Source of the DNA: Acinetobacter rongchengensis
GTDB lineage: Bacteria; Pseudomonadota; Gammaproteobacteria; Pseudomonadales; Moraxellaceae
DNA length: 64,000 nt
Reading direction: 5' to 3'
NCBI RefSeq assembly: GCF_003611475.1
Contig: NZ_RAXT01000001.1
Span: 62,001-126,000, forward strand
In this document: positions 1 to 61,352 of the stretch, piece after piece
Position numbering within the stretch: position 1 is the stretch's first letter
Layout: every line of letters starts with the position of its first letter
The notes under the pieces: model-generated
Databases searched by the model: none
The model's input: the letters and a program-made list of their open reading frames with translations, nothing else
What the model was told of the DNA's origin: nothing
Translations under genes and position numbers: made by a program

Positions 1-457
1 CTGTGAGCAATGAATTTCTGAGAATAATTTTTTCAGCAGCAACCACTTGTAATTGATCTTTTTTAAGTACAAAACTACGCCATTCTGTACCATTTTGAAT
101 CCATGTACTAAAACCCTCAGCTCGATTAGCCAAACCATCGGGTGCACCTTTGGTACGTGCCACAACTTGATGATTGATGATCACATCCGAACCAAAATAC
201 GTGACTTCACAAGCAATTAGATTTTGTTGACTCAACTCTGAAACCATCGGTTTTGCAGACTGAGCCAATTGCTCAGCAGGAATTTGACTGAGTAAACGAG
301 CCACCATATGCGCAGAAGCAGACAGACGCTCATCAAGTGTTTCTGTCATTTTTTTTTCTAAATTAAAATATAGCCAAGCAAACGCGACCGCCCATACCAA
401 AATAAAAGCACAGGTAATGCTCAGAACCAATCGCCATTTTAAACTATAATTTTTCAT
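1..457 (-). CDS. Sensor histidine kinase, N-terminal part (cut by window edge)
   Basis: Partial gene: 152 codons are visible and the catalytic half lies beyond position 1. The start ATG is at 455-457, ten bases after the stop of the response regulator gene, so the two form one operon. The visible part has a short cytoplasmic N-terminus, a hydrophobic membrane segment (about residues 9-31) and the start of a periplasmic sensor region with a single Cys near residue 85. This is the layout of QseC/PmrB-type kinases. No HAMP, His box or ATPase domain is in the window, so the kinase call rests on this architecture and the partner gene. The neighbouring dsb operon makes an envelope thiol signal conceivable, but that is inference. 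Confidence 0.8.
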   Translation of the reverse strand, partial: MKNYSLKWRLVLSITCAFILVWAVAFAWLYFNLEKKMTETLDERLSASAHMVARLLSQIPAEQLAQSAKPMVSELSQQNLIACEVTYFGSDVIINHQVVARTKGAPDGLANRAEGFSTWIQNGTEWRSFVLKKDQLQVVAAEKIILRNSLLT

Positions 458-467
458 GATTTAAACA

Positions 468-1136
468 TCACACATCTAACGCTACATGAAACAGATATCC
501 AACACCTCGAACCGTTTGAATATACTGTGCTCCAATTTTTTGTCTTAAATGAAAAATATGAACATTCAATGCATTACTTTCAATATTGTCTTGAAAACCA
601 TAAACCTTATCGATCAGTGTTTCATTCTTTAATACTTGATTTGGGTACATCATAAAAATTTCGAGTAAAGTGTATTCACGTCTAGACAAATTCAGCACTT
701 GATCTTGCAAGTACACCTGCTGAGTTGCTGTGTCTATTTTCAAATGACCTTGCTGAATCTGATTTGATGCAAAACCACGATGGCGTCTTGCCAAGGCGTG
801 GATTCTGGCAATAAGTTCTGATAATTCAAAAGGTTTAGTCAGATAATCATCTGCACCATAATTTAATGCATCGACACACTGTTGGGTTTTATTGCGTGCA
901 GTTAAAACTAAAACGGGTACAGAAATGTGTTGATCACGCCAATTTTTCAATAACAGCAAACCATCTTGATCAGGCAAACCCAAGTCCAAAAGACATAAAT
1001 CCACCGCAGTATTTTTAACAAAATAATCTGCATCCTTGGCTGTGGTCACATGCTCAACTGAAAAATTCAGATGCTGTAGAGACAGACAAATACTTTTTGC
1101 AATATACGGATCATCTTCTACCAGTAAAATAAACAT
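468..1136 (-). CDS. OmpR-family response regulator (QseB/PmrA type)
   Basis: Response regulator of 222 aa. The receiver domain (about 1-115) has the acidic pair Glu7-Asp8-Asp9, phosphoacceptor Asp51 in LLDLGLPD, and Lys in the YLTKPF motif. The C-terminal winged helix (about 125-220) has the REYTLLE and VRGVGY motifs of the OmpR/PhoB class. I chose ATG 1134-1136 over an upstream GTG because GGGGAG sits five bases before it. It is followed by its kinase and diverges from dsbD. The shared upstream region carries 11-bp spaced TTAAT repeats that look like an OmpR-type box. Family resemblance is closest to QseB/PmrA/BasR; the actual regulon is unknown. Confidence 0.92.
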   Translation of the reverse strand: MFILLVEDDPYIAKSICLSLQHLNFSVEHVTTAKDADYFVKNTAVDLCLLDLGLPDQDGLLLLKNWRDQHISVPVLVLTARNKTQQCVDALNYGADDYLTKPFELSELIARIHALARRHRGFASNQIQQGHLKIDTATQQVYLQDQVLNLSRREYTLLEIFMMYPNQVLKNETLIDKVYGFQDNIESNALNVHIFHLRQKIGAQYIQTVRGVGYLFHVALDV

Positions 1137-1184
1137 GCACACTCCCCAAACACTCAGTACACTATTCTACAAAGAAAAACCTAG

Positions 1185-1212: not shown

Positions 1213-1247
1213 GATAATGACTTTAAATGGAACCAAGATTGGGAATT

Positions 1248-3266
1248 ATGAAGCTGCAAAAATTGTTCAATGCGTTGTGCATTTCTGTTTTGGTATTCAA
1301 TACAGTGAATACCGTTGCTTTAGCGAATGCCGATTTTTTACCTCCAGATCAAGCCTTTCAGCTGTCTGCCGAATCAATTTCAGCCAATAAAGCACAACTT
1401 AAATGGACGATTGCACCTCATTATTACCTATACCATGATCAATTTAAAGTCAGTGTAAATAACAAAAATATTGCGCTTAGCTTACCCAAAGGTCATATAA
1501 AAGATGATCCTACTTTCGGTAAAACTGAAGTTCATTATGATCAGGTCACTAGCCAAATTCAGGTCAAACCCAATTCAAACTATTTAGTCATGTATCAAGG
1601 CTGTTCAGCTGATGGTTTATGCTATCCCTTACAGCGTAAAACCATCCGTACCGATGCAGATGGGCTCTTTCCACAAAACAATACTACAACTAAAAATATA
1701 CTCGCCAATAACGGCGCAGACTCAATACTTAAACCATCTACAGAAACACTTCCACAAAACACGTTGAATAAACAAAATTCCGATAGCGCAGCGGATTTAG
1801 CCACTACCACTACTCAACAGAAGAAAATTTTAACTGGAAATAACGTCGAAAGTTTAGAAAGTCCTGCAACAAGTGCAAGCAGCGAAGCCATTGTAAATCA
1901 GTCTACGGATTCAAGCACTGTCATTACAAATACAGTTAAAACTGATGCTAAAACTGCTAAAGACAATAATACTAGCAGCACAACGTCATTACAATGGAAT
2001 GATGATCAATCTTTTTTTAAGTTATTATCAAAAGATTCATTAATTTTAAATTTATTGATCTTTTTCGGCTTAGGCATTTTACTGGCCTTTTTGCCCTGTT
2101 CATTGCCTCTAATTCCCATTCTTTCGGGCATCATTATTCAGCGTGCTAAAGGTTATAAAGCGGTTGCAATCGCACTAAGTTTTGTTGTGAGTATGGCTGT
2201 TGTCTATGCGATTATGGGAATTGTGGTTGCTGAAATTGGTTATAGTTTTCAACGCTGGTTTCAAAGCCCTTGGATCGTTTCACTATTTGCTATTCTTTTT
2301 GTAGTTTTAGCCTTCAACCTATTTGGTTTATACCAACTTAATCTACCTCAAGCACTGAGCCAAAAGCTGAGCAATCTACAAAATAATCAAAAAGCAGGTA
2401 CGATTTTCGGTGCAATTGCAATGGGCGCATTGTCTGCACTGATCGTCGGCCCATGCATGAGTGCGCCATTGGCAGGTGCATTACTGTTTGTTTCACAATC
2501 ACAAAGTGCTTTTCTAGGCGGTTTATATTTATTTATCCTCGGTTTAGGTATTGGTTTACCACTGTTTATAGCCAGTGTTTTCGGTTCAAAGTTACTGCCG
2601 AAACCAGGTAAATGGATGGATCGAATTAAAGTGAGTTTTGGCTTTGTCATGCTCATGGTTGCTTTATATTTTATCCGACCAATGCTGGCTTCTACATTGT
2701 ATTACGCTATCTTCGCAATCTTATGCATTGCCCTCGCAATCTACCTGTTCTATGCATTACGTGACAGTGAGAAAGCGATTAATAAGGGAATTTTAATCAT
2801 CATTGCATTGCTTAGCCTCACTGCCAGTATTTGGAATATCCAGCAAAGCTATTCTGCATATCAAATTCAGCATAGCCAAACAAAGCACCTTGCATGGCAA
2901 AAAGTCACCACTGCAAATGAGCTTGAAAATGCTTTAAATTCAGCAAAACAATTAGCTAAACCTATCATTATCGATGTTTATGCAGATTGGTGTGTGGCTT
3001 GCCAACCGATCGAAAAAGAAGTCTTTCCTCGTGTAGATGTACAAGATGCGTTAAAGAATTTCACTTTAATTCAGTTAGATTTAACCACTTATAATGAATC
3101 ACAAGACCTCATTCTCAAACAACATGAAATTTTAGGCCCGCCTACCATGCTGTTTTTAAATGAAAATGGCCAAGAAATTCGTGAATTACGCTTTACAGGA
3201 ACATTCACTGCCACGCAATTGATTCAACAAGTGGCGAAACTCCATCAAAAAACAACTCCGCCATGA
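1248..3266 (+). CDS. dsbD: Thiol:disulfide interchange protein DsbD
   Basis: Inner-membrane protein that passes electrons from cytoplasmic thioredoxin to periplasmic isomerases and reductases. A signal peptide (about 1-27) precedes the N-terminal domain, whose reactive pair is Cys119/Cys125 in GCSADGLC. The membrane domain follows from about 260, with its two conserved cysteines in LPCSLPLIP (Cys284) and GPCMSAPL (Cys403). The C-terminal thioredoxin domain has CVAC at 582-585. All three cysteine pairs are present, so it should be active. Residues about 143-250 form an unusual Asn/Thr/Ser-rich low-complexity linker. I use the internal ATG at 1248 because it starts the signal peptide directly. 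The stop overlaps the next start (ATGA). Confidence 0.93.
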   Translation: MKLQKLFNALCISVLVFNTVNTVALANADFLPPDQAFQLSAESISANKAQLKWTIAPHYYLYHDQFKVSVNNKNIALSLPKGHIKDDPTFGKTEVHYDQVTSQIQVKPNSNYLVMYQGCSADGLCYPLQRKTIRTDADGLFPQNNTTTKNILANNGADSILKPSTETLPQNTLNKQNSDSAADLATTTTQQKKILTGNNVESLESPATSASSEAIVNQSTDSSTVITNTVKTDAKTAKDNNTSSTTSLQWNDDQSFFKLLSKDSLILNLLIFFGLGILLAFLPCSLPLIPILSGIIIQRAKGYKAVAIALSFVVSMAVVYAIMGIVVAEIGYSFQRWFQSPWIVSLFAILFVVLAFNLFGLYQLNLPQALSQKLSNLQNNQKAGTIFGAIAMGALSALIVGPCMSAPLAGALLFVSQSQSAFLGGLYLFILGLGIGLPLFIASVFGSKLLPKPGKWMDRIKVSFGFVMLMVALYFIRPMLASTLYYAIFAILCIALAIYLFYALRDSEKAINKGILIIIALLSLTASIWNIQQSYSAYQIQHSQTKHLAWQKVTTANELENALNSAKQLAKPIIIDVYADWCVACQPIEKEVFPRVDVQDALKNFTLIQLDLTTYNESQDLILKQHEILGPPTMLFLNENGQEIRELRFTGTFTATQLIQQVAKLHQKTTPP

Positions 3267-3610
3267 TTAGTACACAAGCCATCCATTTAGGCCCAATCAT
3301 GCTGCCGTGGGGATTCATTATCCTCACCGTTGCAATTGGGACAGCCTTACTGCTTGGAAAATATTTTTGTCATCGCTTTACAGTCAGCAAAGTGCAATGG
3401 GTAATCTTTAAAGACAGTATCTGGACTGCAGTTTTGATTGGCTTGGTCTGTGCACGCATTGGATTTGTTGTTTTAAATTGGGATATTTATCTACAGCATC
3501 CGATTGAAATAATCAAAATACAAGACAAAGGCTTTGATCTTTTTTCGGGAATAATCAGTGCTTTTGTATGGATATTTTGGAAAAATCGCCAACTTAAACA
3601 ATCATTCTAG
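3263..3610 (+). CDS. N-terminal piece: Lgt-like membrane domain ending at the amber codon
   Basis: 115 aa membrane protein as read to the first stop. It has hydrophobic segments around residues 13-32 and 50-70 and a region resembling the Lgt (prolipoprotein diacylglyceryl transferase) fold. It starts inside the dsbD stop (4-bp overlap), so it is translationally coupled. It is too short to be an active Lgt and probably serves only as the membrane part of the full-length fusion. Confidence 0.5.
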   Translation: MISTQAIHLGPIMLPWGFIILTVAIGTALLLGKYFCHRFTVSKVQWVIFKDSIWTAVLIGLVCARIGFVVLNWDIYLQHPIEIIKIQDKGFDLFSGIISAFVWIFWKNRQLKQSF

Positions 3611-3676
3611 ATATTTTTATTAAGTATTTTTACGACGCTTTTACTTTTAGGTACTTATATTCATAAGCAAATAATT

Positions 3677-4093
3677 TTGCAATATCAACAATTCCCAAAG
3701 GTCAGTCTTCGTAATTTACAACAACAAAAAGTTGAACTGGTTCAGTTCATCGGTAAACCTACCGTGATTAACCTATGGGCAAGCTGGTGCCCACCATGTC
3801 GCCGTGAAATGCCTGTATTTCATCAAGCTCAAAAAAACTATCCCAATGTTCAATTTGTTTTTATTAATCAATCAGAAGATGCAGCGACAGTTGATACTTA
3901 CTTACGACAACATACGTTAGATCTTAATTGGGTTTTACTGGATGCCAATGGCATCACAGGACAAAAAACTGGAATGTATGGATTACCCAGTACGTTATTT
4001 TTCAATGCTCAAGGACAACTCGTCGAATCACATATGGGAGAAATTACCCATGCAGCATTGGATCATTATGTTCAAAAAATGATATCTCACTAG
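3677..4093 (+). CDS. C-terminal piece: TlpA-like thioredoxin domain
   Basis: 138 aa if translation restarts at TTG 3677, for which no convincing ribosome binding site is visible. It is a complete TlpA/ResA-type thioredoxin domain with redox motif CPPC at residues 38-41 and the GLPST cis-proline loop near residue 98. Without the upstream helix it would stay in the cytoplasm, so an independent start seems less likely than readthrough or gene inactivation. dsbG begins 10 bases downstream. Confidence 0.45.
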   Translation: MQYQQFPKVSLRNLQQQKVELVQFIGKPTVINLWASWCPPCRREMPVFHQAQKNYPNVQFVFINQSEDAATVDTYLRQHTLDLNWVLLDANGITGQKTGMYGLPSTLFFNAQGQLVESHMGEITHAALDHYVQKMISH

Positions 4094-4103
4094 GAATAAT
4101 CAT

Positions 4104-4856
4104 ATGAAGCCATTGAAAACATTAGGTCTTTTTACCATCGGAGTACTGACAAATCAAATTGCTTTTGCAGCAGAAGCAGATCTTATAAAAACCAAACTTG
4201 AAAAAGAAGGCTACACTTTTGTTAAGCAAATTGAAGCACCTGAAGGCTTAATCGGTTGGACAGGTTATAAAGATGAATATCCTTCAACTGTTTTTATTGC
4301 TAAAGACCAAAAATACTACTTGGTTGGTGACTTGTTTGATCAAACGGGTAAGAATTTAACTGAGCAAGCGATTCATACCCATGTCAAAGGTGCTGTACTT
4401 GATGAAATCTGGAAGAGCCTCGAAAAATCAACGTGGATCCAAGATGGAAAAGCTGATGCTGAGAAAATCATCTATGTTTTCAATGATCCTAATTGTGGTT
4501 ACTGTCATACTTTTTGGAAACAAGCGCGTCCTTTCGTAAACTCAGGGAAAGTTCAATTACGTCATATTATGGTTGGAGTAATTCGTCCGAGTAGTAAAGG
4601 TCAAGCTGCAAGTATTTTGAATAGTAGCAATCCTGTTGAGGTTTTTACTGAATATAATTTAGCCAATGGTAAATCTAAGTTAAAAGAAATGCAGTCTATT
4701 CCTCAAGATTTATCTGAAAAAATAGATTTCAATACCAAATTAATGGATAAATATGGTTTCTATGCGACACCTGCGCTGATTTGGAAAGACAGCAAAGGTG
4801 AGATTCAAAGCCAGCAAGGTGTACCAAAAGATCTAACAAAACTGCTAACGGAATAA
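4104..4856 (+). CDS. dsbG: Periplasmic disulfide isomerase/chaperone DsbG
   Basis: 250 aa DsbC/DsbG family protein, with a signal peptide cleaved near AFA-AEA (residue 22-23). The N-terminal dimerisation region runs to about 95 and the thioredoxin domain has CGYC at 131-134. It resembles DsbG more than DsbC around the active site (NDPNCGYCHTFWKQARP and GVIRPSSKGQAAS), although E. coli DsbG has CPYC. The cis-Pro lies in YATPAL. As the last gene of the dsbD operon it is the expected acceptor of electrons from DsbD. A strong hairpin terminator follows. Confidence 0.88.
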   Translation: MKPLKTLGLFTIGVLTNQIAFAAEADLIKTKLEKEGYTFVKQIEAPEGLIGWTGYKDEYPSTVFIAKDQKYYLVGDLFDQTGKNLTEQAIHTHVKGAVLDEIWKSLEKSTWIQDGKADAEKIIYVFNDPNCGYCHTFWKQARPFVNSGKVQLRHIMVGVIRPSSKGQAASILNSSNPVEVFTEYNLANGKSKLKEMQSIPQDLSEKIDFNTKLMDKYGFYATPALIWKDSKGEIQSQQGVPKDLTKLLTE

Positions 4857-4932: not shown

Positions 4933-5289
4933 TTAGCCTTTCTTTTCATTACGATAAACACCAAATCCAAAATGATACGTCCATTGCGGGATATCATCCG
5001 CATATATAGCTAAAAATAATTTACAAGCATCTTCCACAGAAACCCCTTGTTCATCACACAATTCAGTAAGTTGTTTAGGATGTAAACTAAGCCAGGCATT
5101 TTCTGGTGTGACTTCACAATCAAATAAAACCTGTTTTTTTGCTTGCTCATAATTGCCTGTTTTCGGGTTAAACAGCATTGTATTCTCTGGATAATAATAA
5201 ATGTTCAACTCATCCTGATAATCAAACGAGTACACCGTATGAAATTGATGTTCACGTAAGCAAGTATCTTTATAAATTTGCTCTGTCAT
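4933..5289 (-). CDS. Hypothetical protein, probably the C-terminal part of a frameshifted gene
   Basis: 118 aa from ATG 5287-5289; soluble and acidic, no recognised family. The start overlaps the stop of the upstream frame (TGATG). Adding one base to the A7 run at 5340-5346 (T7 on the coding strand) fuses this frame smoothly to the upstream one, giving about 223 aa. The bridging residues in this frame (SSSGEQLFSDHQ...) read like ordinary protein. So this is more likely the second half of a broken gene than a separate one. Confidence 0.55.
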   Translation of the reverse strand: MTEQIYKDTCLREHQFHTVYSFDYQDELNIYYYPENTMLFNPKTGNYEQAKKQVLFDCEVTPENAWLSLHPKQLTELCDEQGVSVEDACKLFLAIYADDIPQWTYHFGFGVYRNEKKG

Positions 5290-5600
5290 CAAACATGCAT
5301 TGACTTGATGATCAGAAAATAATTGCTCTCCAGAAGATGAAAAAAATCACTGTTAAATTGTTTAATCTGTTCATCATCGAAACTTGCAAATAAACAGTAC
5401 TCAGGATCAAATCTAAGTCTTGCATCTATTACAAGTTCAACCTGTTCTGACCACGGTAATAATTTTGCTAAATCATGTGTTTTATAACGATTATTTTGAG
5501 AAGAATAACCTTCATAACCTGGTTGAGTAAAAACAGAAACTTTCTTTGATTGTGATCGATCCTGATTTTCACAATAACGGTAATTAAATTGTGGAATCAC
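5289..5600 (-). CDS. Hypothetical protein, probably the N-terminal part of a frameshifted gene
   Basis: 103 aa, no recognised family. The only in-frame start is GTG 5598-5600, without a visible ribosome binding site. The frame is open upstream to about 5694 but has no ATG, GTG or TTG there. The last residues after the T7 homopolymer (HLLESNYFLIIKSMHV) look like out-of-frame translation. With one extra base in that run the product continues into the downstream frame. The 5' end may also be damaged. Confidence 0.5.
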   Translation of the reverse strand: MIPQFNYRYCENQDRSQSKKVSVFTQPGYEGYSSQNNRYKTHDLAKLLPWSEQVELVIDARLRFDPEYCLFASFDDEQIKQFNSDFFHLLESNYFLIIKSMHV

Positions 5601-28503: not shown

Positions 28504-28671
28504 GCGCTTTTGATTAAATCCCTCAAACTTAACTTTTTAAATGTCACGCTTTCCTCTAAATACCTTAATTCATTCATATTTATTAAGTCATCATACAACA
28601 GCCTGAAAATTATACTTACATTTCTTTTGTAGAATCATATAATTGAAATACTCTTGATGATAAGCAGCACT

Positions 28672-29638: not shown

Positions 29639-30562
29639 TTATTTCACTCGAATATACTTTTGCTGTTGTTCATTGTAATGATAAACACGCGTTTGATTTA
29701 TGGGGATAATTTTAGCAGTATCTCCGATATAGATTTGCTGCGTACCCCAATAATGGATTTCAATATCATACAAACCATGATGTTCAGTGCTTAAAAATCG
29801 ATAATCCGCATGTGTATTATAAATTTTATCACTTCCTGTAACTTCATTGTCATGAGCAATTTGTGCAACATCCAATTTTATCATCACAGGTTTTTCATCA
29901 AAAGGAACGATATAAAGCTGCTTACTAGAATACCCTTGTCGACTATAGGCTTGTTCTTCTACATAGCCTTTTACATTTGGGCCAATTTTTCGAATATTTT
30001 TAATAATCTTTTCAGTTGAATACGGTGAAAAATCAAAATCACCATTCATCCAACTTGTTTGATCTTGGCTTTGGCTAATTAACTCAAATTTCCCAACAGT
30101 ATTTTTCTTAAATAGATAAATTTGAGTAAACGTTGCACATACACCACAGAAGTTAAGTACTTCATTGTTTTTATCTATTGAAACCTCTGTGGTGCTGATC
30201 AGGTAGCGTAATTCATTTTGAGCATTTCGATATATTTTGGCTGGACTAAACACAATAACAGCATCATTGTTTTCTGAAATTGCGGTACGTTCAGCATTTT
30301 TAATTCCCACATAATCCACATTATTATTATCTAATTGTTGAATTTTTACATATTGAATATCTTTTTGATATAAAGCCATCATGACCGTTTTAAATTCTAA
30401 ATCTTGTAATATGATTTTTTCTTTGGATTTTTCGGCTGATTTTACTGCAATATTTTGTGTAGATACCGGATTACCAAAACTCGGCTGAACACTATTTAAA
30501 CCAAGCAATAAACTAAACAGAATAACATTTGCGTTATATTTTTCTAGACTGTTTTTTATCAT
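29639..30562 (-). CDS. Exported hypothetical protein with a CxxC motif
   Basis: 307 aa. A long N-terminal signal sequence (hydrophobic about 13-24) probably ends near PSFG (residue 30). The mature domain is beta-rich in character and has one CGVC motif near residue 142, the only cysteines, so a disulfide or metal site is likely. Late residues IEIHYWGTQQIYIGD and the C-terminal YNEQQQKYIRVK suggest a repeat-strand fold. No family recognised. It lies 24 bases after acyP and may be in the same transcript. Confidence 0.65.
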   Translation of the reverse strand: MIKNSLEKYNANVILFSLLLGLNSVQPSFGNPVSTQNIAVKSAEKSKEKIILQDLEFKTVMMALYQKDIQYVKIQQLDNNNVDYVGIKNAERTAISENNDAVIVFSPAKIYRNAQNELRYLISTTEVSIDKNNEVLNFCGVCATFTQIYLFKKNTVGKFELISQSQDQTSWMNGDFDFSPYSTEKIIKNIRKIGPNVKGYVEEQAYSRQGYSSKQLYIVPFDEKPVMIKLDVAQIAHDNEVTGSDKIYNTHADYRFLSTEHHGLYDIEIHYWGTQQIYIGDTAKIIPINQTRVYHYNEQQQKYIRVK

Positions 30563-30586: not shown

Positions 30587-30868
30587 TTAAAACGTATCAC
30601 GAATCATTCTAAAATCATTAAAACTCGAGTCAGCTTCAATTTCAATCTGCTGAATGTATTCAACTTGTGCATGTAAAGGGCCAACATAGCTATGTTGTGT
30701 CATTGATACAATGGCTTGCTGTTCACCAATAATAACCGCTTCAACCTCTCCTGTTGTTAGATTTTTCACATAACCTTTTAGATCAAGTTGAATCGCCTCT
30801 TTTTCAAACCAACGACGATAGCCTACACCTTGCACTTTACCTTGAATGATCAGTTTGACAGCTTTCAT
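30587..30868 (-). CDS. acyP: Acylphosphatase
   Basis: 93 aa, the normal size. It hydrolyses acyl phosphates such as carbamoyl and acetyl phosphate. The phosphate loop GKVQGVGYRRW holds catalytic Arg18, and KNLTTGEVE holds catalytic Asn36. The ATG overlaps the nnr stop by 4 bases, so the two are coupled. Confidence 0.95.
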   Translation of the reverse strand: MKAVKLIIQGKVQGVGYRRWFEKEAIQLDLKGYVKNLTTGEVEAVIIGEQQAIVSMTQHSYVGPLHAQVEYIQQIEIEADSSFNDFRMIRDTF

Positions 30869-56950: not shown

Positions 56951-57254
56951 ATTCTTAATCTCGCTCTTGAATGTTTGTTATTTTATACCGCTCAGATTTT
57001 AATGCACTGTTATAGATAAGACGATATGTTTCAAAATTAGAACGCAGTATCAAGACTCATGCATTCCATAAACACTTAAATAGATATATCCAATTGAATT
57101 AGATGCACTTTATTTAAAATAATATTATTATCTTTTGAATTTCTGTTCTATTTTAAAATATCATTTAAAAAATATTCGATACAAAACAACTACAGTCAAA
57201 ATTGTCGTTAAGGCGTTGTATAAGCTTACGAATTCATTCCGAGAATCATTAGAA
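56951..57254. other. AT-rich intergenic region yceI / osmC-like
   Basis: Divergent promoters lie here. The OsmC frame is open back to 57135, but those 40 codons do not resemble the family. Nothing else recognised. Confidence 0.4.
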
Positions 57255-57668
57255 ATGAGCCATAATAGTAGCGTAGCACACAGTACAAAAACGCCTTATC
57301 GTGTCACCCTCACAGATCAACAAGGACATACATGGTATGCCGACGAACCCATTGAAAAAGGTGGAAAAGATACAGCCCCAAATCCAATCCAGTTACTATT
57401 GTCTGCTTTAGGTGCTTGTACAACCATTACGTTAGAAATGTATGCCAATCACAAAGGGATTAAACTTGACCATGTTCAAGTTGATTTAGCACTGAATCCA
57501 AATAGTGAACCAGAAGCTGGGCAAAATAATATTGTCCGAAAAATTATTTTAACAGGTGATTTTACTGAGGACCAGCATAAACGGTTACTCAAAGTAGCGG
57601 AGAGCTGTCCTGTACATAAGCTGTTGACGTCAAATATTCAGATTCAAACAACATTAGAAATTGATTAA
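57255..57668 (+). CDS. OsmC-family protein
   Basis: 138 aa. The two redox cysteines of the OsmC/Ohr fold are in LLSALGACTTIT and ESCPVHKLL. The pattern favours the YhfA/OsmC-like branch rather than a proven Ohr peroxidase. ATG 57255 gives the usual length. A hairpin terminator follows. Confidence 0.85.
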   Translation: MSHNSSVAHSTKTPYRVTLTDQQGHTWYADEPIEKGGKDTAPNPIQLLLSALGACTTITLEMYANHKGIKLDHVQVDLALNPNSEPEAGQNNIVRKIILTGDFTEDQHKRLLKVAESCPVHKLLTSNIQIQTTLEID

Positions 57669-61227: not shown

Positions 61228-61352
61228 GAGTTTCTCCTTTTTAAGTTTTTATGACACTCGCACAGCATACGTGGCTTTGTTGTTTTCGACAAAATTGAAA
61301 TTGTTAAATTTTGCAATAAGTTAAAACTCAGTTTTTAACTCGTACAAACAGC

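Follow-up and report, generated by a model that had tools for sequence, protein, structure and literature searches.

An in-frame amber codon in dsbE of an Acinetobacter dsbRS-dsbDEG cassette, most likely a recent nonsense mutation

Why does the middle gene of a dsbD-dsbE-dsbG operon carry an in-frame TAG, with the reading frame conserved on both sides of it? The initial annotation had described the plus-strand frame at 3263-4093 of the window (the whole 64,000-nucleotide stretch of Acinetobacter DNA analysed here) as open except for a TAG at 3608-3610, and our translation agrees: this TAG, codon 116, is the sole internal stop, and the terminal stop lies at 4091-4093. We suggest that a recent nonsense mutation in dsbE, in an operon of a known kind, is the likeliest account and probably the correct one, followed by a base-call error, with readthrough unlikely. 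On this account dsbE is a pseudogene of the usual sort, in a system already known.

The stop separates two recognizable parts of dsbE (3263-4093, plus strand, assigned by translation, homologue comparison and Pfam). The shortened ORF in the ORF list (3263-3610, plus strand, 115 amino acids) holds the Lgt-like membrane part alone, matching Pfam LGT at 48.8 bits (cut-off 24.9) over profile positions 3-102 of 240 only. The rest of the frame (3611-4093, plus strand) encodes a final hydrophobic segment, detected by hydropathy at residues 115-133, which starts at the TAG and precedes a thioredoxin domain matching Pfam Redoxin at 63.2 bits (cut-off 26.6), with CPPC at residues 176-179 and the cysteines at 176 and 179. 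A hydrophobic helix followed by a CPPC thioredoxin domain in the frame past the TAG, as proposed initially, is therefore present. The description as an Lgt-like/thioredoxin fusion holds in that both matches exceed the Pfam cut-offs; it goes too far for the first half, as the Lgt resemblance spans less than half of the Lgt profile, and "DsbE/TlpA-type reductase" with an Lgt-like membrane part describes the gene better.

The redoxin domain with its WCxxC site (WASWCPPC in the translation and the alignment) assigns the product to the TlpA/DsbE proteins, and the CPPC redoxin domain is common to the TlpA/ResA/DsbE (CcmG) periplasmic reductases. Among solved structures, the A. piscicola homologue is closest to ResA 4nmu (E 1.9e-15), CycY 1kng and other ResA/DsbE entries, e.g., 2b1k. 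The Acinetobacter product differs from these reductases by its additional Lgt-like multi-helix membrane part. It scores under every NCBIfam cut-off among the matches listed, including those of the dsbE or TlpA models TIGR00385 (57.1 versus 123.15 bits) and NF047696 (52.7 versus 230 bits). The N-terminal membrane part resembles Lgt (prolipoprotein diacylglyceryl transferase) by its Pfam LGT match, but a full-length Lgt is not recognized (TIGR00544, 35 versus 118.9 bits), and the rest of the enzyme beyond profile positions 3-102 is absent from the upstream half, so transferase activity would not be expected. A structure predicted for the A. piscicola homologue from a four-row alignment had a mean pLDDT of 54.8, too low for a fold search. 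Literature searches found no paper on an Lgt/thioredoxin fusion and none on PA2477 with dsbG.

The neighbouring genes are intact, as the initial annotation had stated. The protein-disulfide reductase gene dsbD (1227-3266, plus strand; NCBIfam NF001419, 525.7 bits, cut-off 330) and dsbG, encoding a thiol:disulfide interchange protein (4104-4856, plus strand; NF008657, 275.7 bits, cut-off 124), have no internal stop, and the dsbD and dsbE frames overlap by ATGA at 3263-3266. Position 1227 is the mechanical start of dsbD, and its true start is likely ATG 1248. The proposed dsb operon can be defined further as a dsbDEG cassette accompanied by a dedicated two-component pair, dsbS-dsbR, which is divergent from dsbD-dsbE-dsbG in the window, in A. 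piscicola and in the plasmid annotation. The dsbR-type gene (468-1142, minus strand) encodes an OmpR-family response regulator (Pfam Response_reg 89.8 bits, Trans_reg_C 77.6 bits; 96% identity to A. piscicola). The dsbS-type sensor histidine kinase gene occupies 1-457 (minus strand) with its 3' end outside the window; the full gene encodes 461 amino acids (G000:C1:61072-62457) and is an open frame at the window genome's own locus, 96% identical to A. piscicola and stop-free.

We compared the layout at 16 loci, one of them from the window's own genome (ending within dsbE). The five-gene layout is complete in 11 of the 15 others, including A. piscicola and plasmids of A. junii and A. pseudolwoffii; two of the loci (L181 and L061) look like one place, with the same identities in the same order. 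The remaining four (the second copy of G068, and G092, G078 and G047) have dsbD-dsbE-dsbG without the regulator pair within the stretch examined, and three of the four rank directly behind A. piscicola in relatedness. Among Acinetobacter genomes dsbG has 62 matches in 55, and 54 of these genomes also carry dsbE, suggesting that the genes travel together in about one third of the species sampled. The plasmid-borne five-gene cassettes lie near IS3 elements in A. junii and near thiosulfate transport and rhodanese genes in A. pseudolwoffii, and both plasmids (L119 and L120) are typed mobilizable.

The comparison with relatives shows that homologues do not end at the position of the TAG; they continue. 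Among the relatives found to carry dsbE, A. piscicola LW15 is the closest (amino-acid identity 86%); most of the window is collinear with it, and the protein similarity is continuous across the TAG. We detected 62 near full-length dsbE copies in 55 of 175 Acinetobacter genomes, of which 60 are stop-free and two have one stop. The second broken copy, in genome G081, has TAG at codon 54, not 116. Of the 62 copies the alignment comprised 51, namely 49 without a stop and the two broken ones (the 11 copies found later are outside it), and every one of the other 50 sequences carries a sense codon in the column of codon 116. This column is variable, with a basic residue in 26, Leu, Ile or Val in 22 and Ala or Ser in two. 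Outside the genus, 36 of 36 near full-length copies, counted by eye among 244 genomes of the order, are stop-free; two partial matches covering residues 91-262 only (G277 and the second match of G417) have one TGA each and were left uncounted. An intact second dsbE was not found in the window genome by the DNA search, which gives one copy, or by the protein search at E 1e-30, which gives one match; at E 0.001 there are three protein matches, including a short match on contig C190 that is thioredoxin-like. A stop absent from relatives in a frame that is otherwise conserved is the pattern of a pseudogene formed by nonsense mutation.

The frame beyond the TAG has no sign of relaxed constraint. 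Relative to A. piscicola, dN/dS is 0.187 in dsbE before the stop, 0.14 after it and 0.125 in the thioredoxin part, compared with 0.123 in dsbD and 0.133 in dsbG. With five outgroups, the amino-acid changes after the stop were assigned as seven on the window branch, eight on the piscicola branch and five ambiguous, and those before the stop as six, eight and five, respectively; these counts are small enough that a brief relaxation would escape notice. The downstream half is thus undamaged, as was claimed initially, and the lesion is either young or not real. A recent loss, one of the three options offered by the initial annotation (recent loss, sequencing error or readthrough), fits this result. 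In the same comparison dS is higher in dsbG (0.806) than in dsbE (0.438) and dsbD (0.309), perhaps from recombination.

A lesion that is not real would be a sequencing or assembly error, with a sense codon at 3608-3610 and an intact dsbE. We consider this the main competitor of the nonsense mutation, though rather improbable. A single wrong base could suffice, the assembly is a draft (4.10 Mb in 248 contigs, listed as 100% complete), and in one assembled sequence of the species an error would give the same picture, including the absence of relaxation past the stop. Against it, we compared 59 mechanical A. piscicola ORFs (at least 90 amino acids) with the window, and among the 54 that were matched (five were unmatched) we judged no stop other than TAG 3608 to interrupt a conserved gene. 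Nine of the ORFs were flagged: five with a stop, one with a frame change, two with partial stop-free matches and one running past the window end. Besides dsbE, these include TAA 6776, TAG 28630, TAG 57970, TAA 61898 and the frame change near 61245, all of which we judged from the alignments to precede the likely true ATG, suggesting that the assembly is not generally error-prone in the window. Conversely, A. piscicola gave a match for 56 of the 58 window ORFs; the ORFs at 30587-30868 and 57135-57668 meet stops in A. piscicola, and that at 29639-30562 has a partial match.

The conserved frame past the TAG could also reflect readthrough, with a fraction of translation passing the TAG to yield full-length DsbE. 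An A directly after TAG is a comparatively leaky context, and the base following TAG 3608 is A. Folding of the 120 nt that begin at the stop is better than in most shuffled sequences (z -2.76, with 3 of 200 as good; z -2.44 on repeat). This fold is unconserved: z is 0.41 in A. piscicola and, among seven further relatives, lies between -0.42 and 1.12 in six and at -2.45 in one that is stop-free. The stop itself is missing from 60 of the 62 copies and falls at a different codon in the sole other broken one, and the in-frame TAGs at 28630 and 57970 precede likely true starts. The suppressor tRNA for which the initial annotation proposed a search was not detected: the genome has 63 tRNA matches, each place read with ARAGORN as at least one tRNA per stretch, and among their 32 anticodons there is none for UAG, UAA or UGA, although a tRNA in an assembly gap between the 248 contigs would be missed. 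Likewise, G081 has 66 tRNA matches with 31 anticodons and none for UAG, UAA or UGA. With neither a conserved stop position or context nor a tRNA reading UAG, the RNA fold is weak support for decoding of the TAG, and we regard readthrough as very unlikely. A search for amber readthrough with Acinetobacter gave nothing to the point, judged by titles and the starts of abstracts. General recoding of TAG was rejected, as we found neither another conserved gene in the window with an internal TAG nor a matching tRNA.

A variant is that the amber codon is tolerated, some reading of UAG supplying a low level of DsbE, so that reductase output would be tuned down and not lost. We give it slightly less credence than readthrough in general; if it were true, the independent dsbE TAG of G081 would be a parallel case. 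The least probable reading, for which we see hardly any room, is a split gene with the halves acting as separate proteins, the second made from TTG 3677 or another weak start. TTG 3677 is the next start listed in the frame beyond the TAG and opens a 138-amino-acid ORF. This product lacks the hydrophobic segment 115-133, so its CPPC domain would presumably remain cytoplasmic, and the protein is one continuous chain in 60 of 62 copies of the genus. The case matters chiefly for annotation, in which the locus is best treated as a genuine operon member, neither two genes nor a recoded gene.

Returning to the nonsense mutation, a sense codon at position 116 of dsbE in the dsbRS-dsbDEG cassette would have changed recently to TAG. 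Translation would then yield only 115 residues, an Lgt-like membrane piece in which the last helix and the CPPC thioredoxin domain are missing, and a restart at TTG 3677 would give the 138-residue thioredoxin domain with no membrane segment. With the catalytic domain cut off and the restart product lacking its membrane segment, DsbE is very probably lost. DsbD and DsbG are still encoded, and dsbG expression may perhaps be lowered by polarity. The window dsbD is the sole DsbD match of the genome at E<=1e-60, and the operon dsbD may be its only DsbD. At the same threshold at least two DsbD were found in 33 of the 55 dsbE-carrying genomes, in some through two cassettes.

The putative cellular role of the gene follows from the likeness of the cassette to the Pseudomonas DsbRS-DsbDEG system. 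In P. fluorescens the DsbRS pair is likewise divergent from dsbD-dsbE-dsbG (PMC13101516). In Pseudomonas, copper is described as acting on DsbS, with a copper-sensitive dsbRS mutant (PMC10141476), and copper-induced expression via DsbS and DsbR is described in both papers (PMC10141476, PMC13101516). The window carries an Acinetobacter version of this cassette, differing in its TAG-interrupted dsbE; the presumed orthology is based on gene order and family names rather than protein alignment, and a copper response of the Acinetobacter cassette is putative. Small-colony variants from P. fluorescens biofilm evolution are reported to have changes in dsbS, upstream of dsbD and as a dsbE-dsbG fusion (PMC13101516), which makes recurrent loss under some conditions a modest, testable idea.

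The broken dsbE of the window provides a natural example of a disrupted dsbDEG gene, beside three other single-gene stops found in the genus. These are TAG in dsbE of G081 (L176 4985-5818), TAG in dsbD of G042 (L175 2250-4115) and TAA in the second-copy dsbG of G068 (L177 4777-5505). The tally for the cassette genes is two of 62 for dsbE, one of 62 for dsbG and at least one for dsbD, the cassette dsbD copies being not counted apart. The dsbD genes of G092, G127, G125 and G101 were first listed with one stop; on re-examination three show none, and that of G101 has a stop at codon index 4, which probably precedes its true start. Among the matches listed, a less closely related DsbD in G044 contains one TAG.

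The only two window ORFs unmatched in A. piscicola lie on the minus strand at 4933-5292 and 5289-5600, adjoining in different frames. The ORF at 4933-5292 is similar to a portion of open frames, 1063-1095 residues long, from 18 other Acinetobacter genomes (173 searched), suggesting that 4933-5600 is the remnant of a larger gene.
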